From contig NZ_PKFQ01000001.1 in assembly GCF_002939475.1 (NCBI RefSeq), positions 3,531,001 through 3,595,000 of the forward strand: a DNA stretch of 64,000 nt. Direction: 5' to 3'. Made by a program: the position numbers and the translations under genes. The DNA comes from Streptomyces cinnamoneus. Its GTDB lineage: Bacteria; Actinomycetota; Actinomycetes; Streptomycetales; Streptomycetaceae. Shown piece after piece: positions 23,567-26,905 of this stretch (position 1 is its first letter; the number at the start of each line of letters is the position of its first letter). Under the pieces are notes generated by a model. The model did not search any database and was not told the origin of the DNA. It saw nothing but the letters and a program-made list of their open reading frames with translations.

Positions 23567-24910
23567 TCAGGCCCGTACCGCCCCGGTGACGAGCCACCGC
23601 CCGGAGCGGGCCCGCAGCCAGAGGGTCGCCAGCCGGGCCGCCATCATCAGCGTCATCGCCCACCACAGCGTCGTCAGCCCGCCACCCAGGGCGGGCACGA
23701 GCAGCGCCGCGGGTGTGAAGACGGCCAGGACCAGCAGCATCGCCCAGGCGAGGTAGGGGCCGTCGCCGGCGCCCATGAGCACGCCGTCCAGCACGAAGAC
23801 AACGCCCGCGACGGGCTGTGCGAGGGCCACGACCAGGAGGGCGGGCAGCAGGGTGTCCCGCACGGCGGCGTCCGTGGTGAACAGCGGGATGAACAGCGCT
23901 CGTCCGGCGACCACCAGTGCGCCCAGCACCACGCCCGAGGCGACGCCCCACCGCACCATGCGGCGGCAGGCGGCCCGGGCTCCTTCGGGATCGCTGGCGC
24001 CCAGGTAGCGCCCGATGATCGCCTGCCCGGCTATGGCTATGGCGTCCAGCGCGAAGGCCATCAGGTTCCACAGGGACAGCACGATCTGGTGGGCGGCTAT
24101 CTCGGTGTCGCCGAGGCTCGTCGCGACCGCCGTGGCGATCAGGCCCATGCCGCGCAGCGAGAGCGTGCGCACCAGAAGGGGCGCCCCCGCCCGGGCGCAG
24201 GCCCGGATGCCGGCGGCGTCCGGACGCAGGGACGCGCCGTGGCGGCGGGCCCCGCGGACGACGACCGCGAGGTAGGCGGCGGCCATCGCCCACTGGGCGA
24301 TGACGGTGCCCCAGGCGGAGCCGGCGACGCCCAGCCCGGCACCGTAGACGAGGGCGACGTTGAGGGCCGCGTTGGCGGTGAAGCCGCCGACGGCGACGTA
24401 CAGCGGTGTCCGGGTGTCCTGGAGGCCGCGGAGCACGCCGGTGGCGGCGAGGACGACGAGCATCGCGGGGATGCCCAGGGCGCTGACGCGCAGGTAGGTG
24501 GTGGCGTAGGGCGCGGCGGTGGCGGAGGTGCCGAAGGCGTCGATGAGGGCGGAGGCGGTGGGCAGCACGGCGGCGGTCACGGCCGTACCGAGGAGCACCG
24601 CGAGCCAGATGCCGTCGAGGCCCTGCCGGACGGCGGCCCGGACGTCCCCGGCCCCGACGCGGCGGGCGACGCCGGCGGTGGTGGCGTAGGCGAGGAAGAC
24701 GAAGATGCTGACCCCGGTGGCGAGCAGGGCGGCGGCGACGCCGAGCCCCGCGAGCTGAGGGGTGCCGAGGTGGCCCACGATGGCGCTGTCGGCCATCACG
24801 AAGAGGGGCTCCGCGACGAGAGCGCCGAACGCGGGCACGGCGAGTGCGACGATCTCCCGGTCGTGCCGGCGGGCGCTCTGTGCGGCGAGCTCGCGGGCTT
24901 GCGTGACCAT
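23567..24910 (-). CDS. MATE family efflux transporter (DinF-like)
   Basis: A 447-residue MATE exporter with 12 hydrophobic segments in two homologous halves. The first half begins REIVALAVPAFGALVAEPLFVMADSAIVGHLGT, the signature of the DinF subgroup; the second half repeats it (LSLRGMGLIATAVATSLGDTEIAAHQI). It would export cationic or lipophilic compounds using an ion gradient. I placed the start at ATG 24910 (MVTQARELAA, GGGA upstream); a GTG at 24928 is in frame. It converges with the ribosomal-protein operon and is divergent from dnaB. Confidence 0.9.
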   Translation of the reverse strand: MVTQARELAAQSARRHDREIVALAVPAFGALVAEPLFVMADSAIVGHLGTPQLAGLGVAAALLATGVSIFVFLAYATTAGVARRVGAGDVRAAVRQGLDGIWLAVLLGTAVTAAVLPTASALIDAFGTSATAAPYATTYLRVSALGIPAMLVVLAATGVLRGLQDTRTPLYVAVGGFTANAALNVALVYGAGLGVAGSAWGTVIAQWAMAAAYLAVVVRGARRHGASLRPDAAGIRACARAGAPLLVRTLSLRGMGLIATAVATSLGDTEIAAHQIVLSLWNLMAFALDAIAIAGQAIIGRYLGASDPEGARAACRRMVRWGVASGVVLGALVVAGRALFIPLFTTDAAVRDTLLPALLVVALAQPVAGVVFVLDGVLMGAGDGPYLAWAMLLVLAVFTPAALLVPALGGGLTTLWWAMTLMMAARLATLWLRARSGRWLVTGAVRA

Positions 24911-25094
24911 ACGCGTCCCATCTTCCACAGGTAATCAGTGCACTTAGCTTAAGCCCCTTACCTGGCGCGGTTGTGCGTGATCTTGTCTGCGCCGTTTGTC
25001 GCCATCTCCCCCCGGCCGGGAAAGTTTTTCTCCTCAACAGCCGGTGGACGGTAAAAGCGCAGGTCAGAGGGGTGGGCTCCAGGTGATTGTGTGT

Positions 25095-25183
25095 TTGTCC
25101 ACAGCGGTTTCCCCCGTGTCGTGCACAGGATCCGGGGAGTTCTCCACAGGCTTGGGCCGCTCATCCACATGCCCTGTGGATAA
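25095..25183. promoter_or_regulatory. Cluster of four DnaA-box-like sequences upstream of dnaB
   Basis: TTGTCCACA (25095-25103) is the preferred Streptomyces DnaA box. TTCTCCACA (25140-25148) and TCATCCACA (25161-25169) are single or double variants. TGTGGATAA (25175-25183) is a perfect TTATCCACA on the other strand. Four boxes within 89 bp are far above chance at this GC content. The last box ends 5 bp before the candidate -35. Confidence 0.7.
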
Positions 25184-25188
25184 CCAGA

Positions 25189-25217
25189 TTGGCTGACGGT
25201 GCCCGCGGGCCTACCGT
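25189..25217 (+). promoter_or_regulatory. Candidate dnaB promoter
   Basis: -35 TTGGCT (25189-25194), 17-nt spacer, -10 TACCGT (25212-25217). Directly adjacent to the DnaA-box cluster. Confidence 0.5.
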
Positions 25218-25423
25218 GGTCCGGCGCCCGCCGTCTGATTTCCGTCGCGTCCCCGTGCTCCGGACCTCACAAGTCCGGCACCAAGTCCTCGCGAAGCCAC
25301 CGCGAAACTCGCCCCGAACGTGACGCGCGACAACCGGAGTCGGGCGACAGATTTGTCAGAGCCGTGCCGTAAGAAAGAGGAGCACGGCGAGGTCCGCGTC
25401 GCGGACGGGAGGAGGTGGCCCGG

Positions 25424-26905
25424 GTGAGCGTTCCCGAGCCCATGGACGACCCCTGGGGCGAGGCTGGCCCCGGTGACCGGCTCCCCTTCCCCCGTTCCCG
25501 TCGCGGTGACGGTGCCGGCAAGGGCCGGGGCGAGCAGCACGACCGCGGTGGCGACGACGGCGGCTCCTGGGACCGGGGCGGCTTCGAGCGCGTACCGCCG
25601 CAGGACCTGGACGCCGAGCAGTCCGTCCTCGGCGGCATGCTGCTGTCGAAGGACGCCATCGCGGACGTCGTCGAGGTCCTCAAGGGCAACGACTTCTACC
25701 GCCCCGCGCACGAGACGATCTACCAGGCCATCCTCGACCTCTACGCCAAGGGCGAGCCGGCCGACCCCATCACCATCGCGGCGGAGCTGACCAAGCGCGG
25801 AGAGATCACGCGCGTCGGCGGCGCGGCCTATCTGCACACCCTGGTCCAGTCCGTCCCGACCGCGGCCAACGCCGAGTACTACGCCGAGATCGTCCACGAG
25901 CGCGCGGTCCTGCGCCGCCTGGTCGAGGCCGGCACCCGCATCACGCAGATGGGGTACGCAGCCGACGGCGACGTCGACGACATCGTCAACAGCGCCCAGG
26001 CCGAGATCTACGCCGTCACCGAGCAGCGCACCAGCGAGGACTACCTCCCGCTCGGCGACATCATGGAGGGCGCGCTCGACGAGATCGAGGCCATCGGTTC
26101 GCGCAGCGGCGAGATGACCGGCGTGCCCACCGGTTTCACGGACCTCGACGCCCTGACGAACGGCCTCCACCCCGGCCAGATGATCGTCATCGCGGCCCGG
26201 CCCGCCATGGGTAAGAGCACCCTGGCCCTGGACTTCGCCCGGGCCTGCTCGATCAAGCACAACATGCCGAGCGTGATCTTCTCGCTCGAAATGGGGCGCA
26301 ACGAGATCGCCATGCGTCTGCTGTCCGCGGAGGCGCGGGTGGCGCTCCACCACATGCGCTCCGGTTCCATGACGGACGACGACTGGACGCGGCTCGCCCG
26401 CCGGATGCCCGACGTGTCGGCCGCGCCGCTCTACATCGACGACTCGCCGAACCTGTCGATGATGGAGATCCGGGCCAAGTGCCGGCGTCTGAAGCAGCGT
26501 CAGGACCTCAAGCTGGTGATCATCGACTATCTCCAGCTGATGCAGTCCGGCGGCTCCAAGCGCGCCGAGAGCCGCCAGCAGGAGGTCTCGGACATGTCCC
26601 GTAACCTCAAGCTGCTCGCCAAGGAGCTGGAGCTGCCGGTCATCGCGCTCTCCCAGCTGAACCGTGGCCCCGAGCAGCGTACGGACAAGAAGCCGATGGT
26701 CTCCGACCTCCGTGAGTCGGGTTCCATCGAGCAGGACGCCGACATGGTCATCCTGCTGCACCGCGAGGACGCGTACGAGAAGGAGTCGCCCCGCGCGGGC
26801 GAGGCGGACATCATCGTCGGCAAGCACCGTAACGGCCCCACGGCCACGATCACCGTGGCCTTCCAGGGCCATTACTCCCGCTTCGTGGACATGGCCCAGA
26901 CGTAG
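25424..26905 (+). CDS. dnaB: Replicative DNA helicase DnaB
   Basis: A 493-residue hexameric fork helicase. A Gly/Arg/Asp-rich tail of about 55 residues precedes the N-terminal domain (PPQDLDAEQSVLGGMLLSKDAI). The RecA-like C-terminal domain has Walker A ARPAMGKST (about 260), EMGRNEIAMRLL, Walker B LVIIDYLQLM and the DLRESGSIEQDAD segment. No intein is present, although actinobacterial DnaB often carries one. I chose GTG 25424 because GGGAGGAGG lies 8 nt upstream; GTG 25415 sits inside that SD. It is convergent with the PAP2 gene (25 bp apart). Confidence 0.97.
   Translation: MSVPEPMDDPWGEAGPGDRLPFPRSRRGDGAGKGRGEQHDRGGDDGGSWDRGGFERVPPQDLDAEQSVLGGMLLSKDAIADVVEVLKGNDFYRPAHETIYQAILDLYAKGEPADPITIAAELTKRGEITRVGGAAYLHTLVQSVPTAANAEYYAEIVHERAVLRRLVEAGTRITQMGYAADGDVDDIVNSAQAEIYAVTEQRTSEDYLPLGDIMEGALDEIEAIGSRSGEMTGVPTGFTDLDALTNGLHPGQMIVIAARPAMGKSTLALDFARACSIKHNMPSVIFSLEMGRNEIAMRLLSAEARVALHHMRSGSMTDDDWTRLARRMPDVSAAPLYIDDSPNLSMMEIRAKCRRLKQRQDLKLVIIDYLQLMQSGGSKRAESRQQEVSDMSRNLKLLAKELELPVIALSQLNRGPEQRTDKKPMVSDLRESGSIEQDADMVILLHREDAYEKESPRAGEADIIVGKHRNGPTATITVAFQGHYSRFVDMAQT

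Follow-up and report, generated by a model that had tools for sequence, protein, structure and literature searches.

In Streptomyces cinnamoneus, a compact row of DnaA boxes stands directly before the promoter of dnaB, the gene of the replicative helicase, and we consider it likely that this row is a DnaA operator through which dnaB is controlled, probably by activation. Rows of such boxes recur before dnaB across the sampled actinomycetes, which suggests that the replication initiator may help to control the supply of its own helicase. The window, that is, the whole stretch of 64,000 nucleotides that was analysed, corresponds to G000:C1:3531001-3595000 in a genome of 6.66 Mb, and its DnaB is closest to that of Streptomyces among the named loci compared. 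The features of interest, in window coordinates, are listed here.

23567-24928, minus strand: divergent gene of a MATE-family transporter (Pfam MatE)
24921-24929, plus strand: TCTTCCACA, box 0, upstream of the array and covering the MATE start and leader (from conservation)
25095-25103, plus strand: DnaA box 1, TTGTCCACA (direct reading)
25119-25127, plus strand: degenerate box 1b, TCGTGCACA (from conservation)
25140-25148, plus strand: DnaA box 2, TTCTCCACA (direct reading)
25161-25169, plus strand: DnaA box 3, TCATCCACA (direct reading)
25175-25183, minus strand: DnaA box 4, TTATCCACA, inverted and promoter-proximal (direct reading and conservation)
25189-25194, plus strand: -35-like TTGGCT (mean conservation 0.97 over 81 same-genus loci)
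25212-25217, plus strand: -10-like TACCGT (mean conservation 0.97 over 81 same-genus loci)
25424-26905, plus strand: dnaB, replicative helicase (Pfam DnaB_C and DnaB N-terminal domain), from a GTG start of our choice, the start in the list of open reading frames being 25415

The original prediction placed four DnaA boxes within 89 bp (25095-25183) and the end of the last one 5 bp upstream of the -35 hexamer TTGGCT, and direct reading bears out both statements, although two conserved boxes (25119-25127 and 24921-24929) had been overlooked. It also spoke of a good -35/-10 pair; this holds insofar as both hexamers are conserved, but a sigma-70 scan, whose consensus is that of E. coli, called no promoter at TTGGCT/TACCGT and lends the claim no support. 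The two hexamers are separated by 17 bp, and transcription would start near 25224. Relative to this inferred start, the box centres of the array lie at about -45, -59, -80, -101 and -125, while the starts of boxes 1, 1b, 2, 3 and 4 are separated by 24, 21, 21 and 14 bp. All boxes of the array except the last are oriented toward dnaB, and none overlaps the core promoter. The sequence of box 1, TTGTCCACA, is that of the high-affinity S. coelicolor DnaA box (PMC4285127). When the interval 24880-25450 was compared with Rfam, no match at the gathering score was obtained, a single match being at chance level. As for the surroundings, rplI is located beyond the divergent MATE gene, and a moderately conserved stretch at 25024-25075, between this gene and the array, is perhaps the MATE promoter.

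The origin of replication lies at about 3519.8-3520.5 kb, where a dense box region is found beside dnaA (Pfam Bac_DnaA), and the dnaB-side cluster (3556095-3556183) is situated about 36 kb from it. The cluster was ruled out as oriC itself: the large box region adjoins dnaA, and this cluster precedes dnaB. A scan of 400 kb around oriC, in which a 9-mer counted as a box if it differed from TTGTCCACA at one position at most, or at two provided that the TCCACA core was intact, gave 125 boxes, and the dnaB-side site was the only one with at least four box starts within 81 bp; none of 40 second-order Markov simulations of 400 kb contained more than two boxes starting within that distance. Since boxes with one mismatch are present in unremarkable number in the whole window (9 found, 5.84 expected), it is by clustering, and not by their total, that the array stands out. 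Outside oriC the same scan detected eight groups, three with at least three boxes and five pairs, and the dnaB-side cluster is dense and origin-proximal, as befits an extra-oriC cluster of Streptomyces. Two TCATCCACA boxes were also seen in the 5' part of the parA open reading frame (G000:C1:3526587-3526616), their starts being 21 bp apart, which is the spacing of boxes 2 and 3 at dnaB.

All 81 genomes of the genus sample (that of the window included) yielded a DnaB, and in each of them the DNA before the gene was read. An inverted box followed at 27-29 bp by TANNNT is present in 81/81 of these loci, box 4 reaching a mean conservation of 1.00. The 100 bp up to and including the inverted box hold four core boxes in 42 loci, three in 38 and two in one (L030, where the array is reduced to boxes 1 and 4, an instance of the decay of individual boxes within the genus). 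When the loci were anchored on the inverted box, which was feasible for 80 of them (L100 has no anchor under the pattern used), box 3 was found to start 14 bp before the anchor in 72 loci and box 2 35 bp before it in 68; a core box occurs 254 bp before it, at the place of box 0, in 66, and 80 bp before it, at the place of box 1, in 39. The latter count is low because many genomes have TTGTTCACA there, without the counted core. Box 1b shows a mean column conservation of 0.94 with a lowest column of 0.58, its place being taken by TTGTGCACA or TTGTACACA in L128 and L166. Mean column conservation is 0.96 in the array and promoter and 0.73 in the remainder of 24929-25224; the leader at 25225-25320 has a mean of 0.19, with mostly-gap columns counted as 0. 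The interval from box 0 to box 1 (24921-25103) measures 174 bp, or 175 in some cases, in most same-genus loci, and is thus near-fixed in length though its sequence conservation averages only 0.69. In the other genera of the family, for which 51 genomes were searched and 21 loci used, the inverted box with TANNNT at 27-29 bp recurs in 19 loci; the two misses are L117, with only 230 bases upstream, and L130, in which boxes are present and TANNNT is absent from that place. The original prediction was to be given up if the promoter had been kept and the boxes lost, and what is found in the orthologous gaps is that boxes and promoter are conserved together.

Beyond the family, the class search took in 118 genomes, 11 of them from the same genus, and 99 of the 107 others were examined (20 loci and 79 stretches). 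Those left out are G169, G201, G209, G233 and G242, all of one genus that is represented by three other genomes, and G142, G193 and G197, which have no listed N-terminal match. Ninety-four genomes from 29 other families were counted, L237, L245, L261, L297 and L305 being without an N-terminal hit, and boxes with an intact core and at most two mismatches were sought in the 440 bp before the DnaB N-terminal domain, a stretch that ends 60 bp before the codon of residue 60 (window DnaB) and may include the first dnaB codons. These stretches contain 299 boxes, against a mean of 6.5 and a maximum of 45 for permuted motifs (n=400) and 21 for the reversed motif, and a far-upstream 440 bp in 93 of the 94 genomes contains three. 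Every genome has at least one box (94/94), 78 have at least two within 150 bp and 57 at least three, while no two boxes lie within 150 bp in the remaining 16. Boxes are seen, for instance, in the named loci of Nonomuraea (L169), Arthrobacter (L172), Microbacterium (L188), Nocardioides (L181), Blastococcus (L183) and Bifidobacterium (L194), and none was seen in the 900 bp read for Sediminivirga luteola (L209). Twenty dnaB paralogues, hand-picked from the genus and family match lists, carry five lone boxes in 27,880 bp of upstream DNA; S. yangpuensis L197, whose DnaB is 70% identical and which was taken for a paralogue, has no boxes. The gene detected before dnaB is MATE-like in 40 of the 94 genomes, rplI in 34 and neither in 20, and since the upstream gene varies while the boxes remain, the boxes follow dnaB.

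Their geometry is regular as well. Of the class boxes, 238 of 299 are oriented like dnaB, and the spacings of plus-strand boxes (one count per family and value, 104 values) have a period of 10.9 bp with R 0.73, a value reached by none of 5000 random draws. Plus-strand boxes are also helically phased to TANNNT: over 101 values R is 0.66 at 11.1 bp, whereas five control hexamers give 0.19-0.31. Furthermore, TANNNT follows 20 of the 65 minus-strand boxes at 28 or 29 bp (nine in family f15, six in f16, four in f20 and one in f12), and over offsets of 10-35 bp it is found elsewhere only at 20 (two cases). As in the window, the f16 loci and the f12 locus have a TTGG hexamer that starts 5 bp beyond the box; in f15, TTGG or TTGC starts 4 bp after the box, and in the f20 loci no clear -35 could be read at that place. 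An inverted box 28-29 bp before TANNNT occurs in only 20/94 class genomes outside the family, from 4/29 families, the others keeping boxes in different arrangements.

Two of the other groups near the origin deserve description on their own account. A three-box DnaA cluster (G000:C1:3504641-3504691, or L037:4641-4691) lies behind crgA, in the interval that separates the 3' end of this gene from a rhomboid gene. For this site 32 genomes were searched and 30 loci from across the class obtained, three of them from the own family and one represented by a segment of only 157 bases; in the 450 bp behind crgA, 28/30 loci have at least one box and 21/30 at least two within 150 bp. The 66 boxes counted there compare with a mean of 1.9 and a maximum of 17 for permuted motifs (n=300), and with two in the 450 bp before crgA. 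Judged by the M. tuberculosis gene order, this cluster seems to correspond in synteny to Rv0010c-Rv0011c, a DnaA site of mycobacteria. Upstream of serS, a two-box group (G000:C1:3614183-3614221, or L042:14183-14221) with a further inverted core nearby is presumably the published D78. It was tried as a third shared site and rejected: in 30 loci from 32 genomes searched, clusters are present in two of the three family loci, and the 27 loci outside the family have none and one box in all, counts in which L389, matched only in part, and L390, whose synthetase is divergent, may be represented by the wrong upstream stretches.

Several boxes near a core promoter and conserved together with it are what is expected of a predicted DnaA-regulated promoter, the promoter being recognised in this case by conservation and not by a consensus scan. 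The original prediction had proposed that DnaA could directly control dnaB, and this reading gains support from the conserved boxes and promoter, from the phased geometry and from DnaA binding in mycobacteria. Direct control is favoured because the geometry relative to the -10-like hexamer is fixed and helically phased in several families, and because DnaA binding upstream of dnaB has been published for both M. tuberculosis and M. smegmatis. DnaA would oligomerise cooperatively along a single face of the helix, adjacent to RNA polymerase, and the level or nucleotide state of DnaA would set the helicase supply; being origin-proximal, the array may also bind off some DnaA. Placement of boxes upstream of a core promoter is an activator-like geometry, as judged from established activator positions, and since all box centres lie there, an activator fits better than a blocking repressor. 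The sole expression datum that we met in print, from a mycobacterial mutant, also points toward activation.

It is doubtful, though quite conceivable, that DnaA instead represses dnaB, for example at high DnaA-ATP, by trapping RNA polymerase or masking the -35 hexamer. This is the operator reading with the opposite sign, and its odds overlap with those of the best explanation. A DnaA oligomer extending from the last box, only 5 bp away, could occlude the -35, and several bacteria, S. lividans included, have a dnaA promoter on which DnaA itself acts (PMC8203912). Nevertheless, no box covers the core promoter, and in the mycobacterial mutant whose DnaA binds less, dnaB RNA is reduced (PMC7738170).

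Less is to be said for the idea that the array mainly titrates or inactivates DnaA near the origin, in the manner of S. coelicolor D78, of E. coli datA or of the B. subtilis clusters, its place before dnaB being incidental, and we regard it as unlikely. Clusters repressing untimely initiation have been cited for S. coelicolor and B. subtilis (PMC4585315, PMC5742627), and the cluster at the crgA 3' end is likewise widespread and stands at no promoter identified. Position cannot separate titration from regulation, as the measured distances between dnaB and dnaA are about 22-143 kb; a dnaB far from oriC, which would have allowed the separation, was sought among 29 genomes and found in none, all of them having dnaB near dnaA when contig ends are taken as joined, the genome size used for G224 being a rounded one. 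Against titration stand the TANNNT register at 28-29 bp in four further families together with the helical phase of the plus-strand boxes, and the fact that the boxes stay with dnaB whichever gene lies upstream (n=94). Moreover, the serS-side cluster, otherwise the better candidate for such a role, shows no conservation beyond the family in the sampled loci.

That the array controls the divergent MATE gene and not dnaB is very improbable: box 0 does overlap the MATE start, and its core box recurs at 254 bp in most same-genus loci, but the array abuts the dnaB promoter, and boxes remain in the genomes where rplI (34/94) or neither gene (20/94) was detected, a divergent MATE gene being one that could be missed there. 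This persistence of the boxes without a detected MATE gene led to the MATE-centred reading being set aside. Finally, single boxes deviating at no more than one position abound, the genome having 508 of them and the reversed control 401, but chance or a composition artefact can be dismissed for practical purposes, as it is rejected by the Markov simulations, by conservation beyond the genus and by the motif and paralogue controls.

With the operator reading preferred, a wider picture can be sketched tentatively, in which actinomycetes would possess an ancient, origin-linked pair of sites, a dnaB operator helically phased and in register with the promoter, and the crgA-side site corresponding to Rv0010c-Rv0011c, so that the initiator would be wired class-wide to helicase supply and perhaps to septation. 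The mycobacterial study describes Rv0010c-Rv0011c as a site of recurrent clinical mutations (PMC7738170), and Streptomyces offers a harmless relative in which the crgA-side site can be studied. A DnaA site at dnaB is of an already known kind, given the mycobacterial peak; for the class-wide conservation or the promoter register of the dnaB boxes, no report was found in the open-licence literature, which is weak evidence of novelty. If the operator reading is true, dnaB transcription is a direct output of DnaA, and the opener of the origin and the supply of helicase would be coupled in one circuit across a class that includes both antibiotic producers and mycobacteria.

Among the known systems that come close are the extra-oriC DnaA-box clusters H69, H24 and D78 of S. 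coelicolor, which are likewise origin-proximal and were reportedly described in 2006 by Smulczyk-Krawczyszyn et al., who are said to have stressed D78 and the frequency of replication rather than control of dnaB. The names reportedly come from cosmids with crgA, the rplI-dnaB region and serS. Three of the eight groups outside oriC lie just where these genes are, at 3504641 behind crgA, at 3556095 before dnaB and at 3614183 before serS, and the dnaB-side cluster is therefore probably H24; no paper tying cosmid H24 to dnaB was found among the open-licence literature. Clustered boxes outside oriC are also known from E. coli datA and from B. subtilis, the literature crediting them with inactivating DnaA or with holding back untimely initiation. 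In another phylum, Caulobacter crescentus likewise has predicted DnaA boxes before its replicative helicase gene, dnaB being counted in the DnaA regulon (Hottes 2005, via the review PMC8203912). A further parallel is that of the mycobacteria, in which Hicks et al. 2020 determined DnaA binding in vitro for M. tuberculosis (IDAP-seq) and by ChIP-seq for M. smegmatis; both methods give a DnaA peak upstream of dnaB (Rv0057 region), and the I282T DnaA of M. tuberculosis binds more weakly there and uniquely under-expresses dnaB (PMC7738170), a link that is a correlation in one allele. Like the Streptomyces cluster, the mycobacterial site is a DnaA site upstream of dnaB, the boxes described here being predicted from sequence. 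The mycobacterial account, in its accessible part, consists of a binding peak without box geometry, promoter register or conservation outside mycobacteria (PMC7738170), whereas the arrangement presented here turns such a peak into a testable promoter design, specifying which boxes and which spacing.
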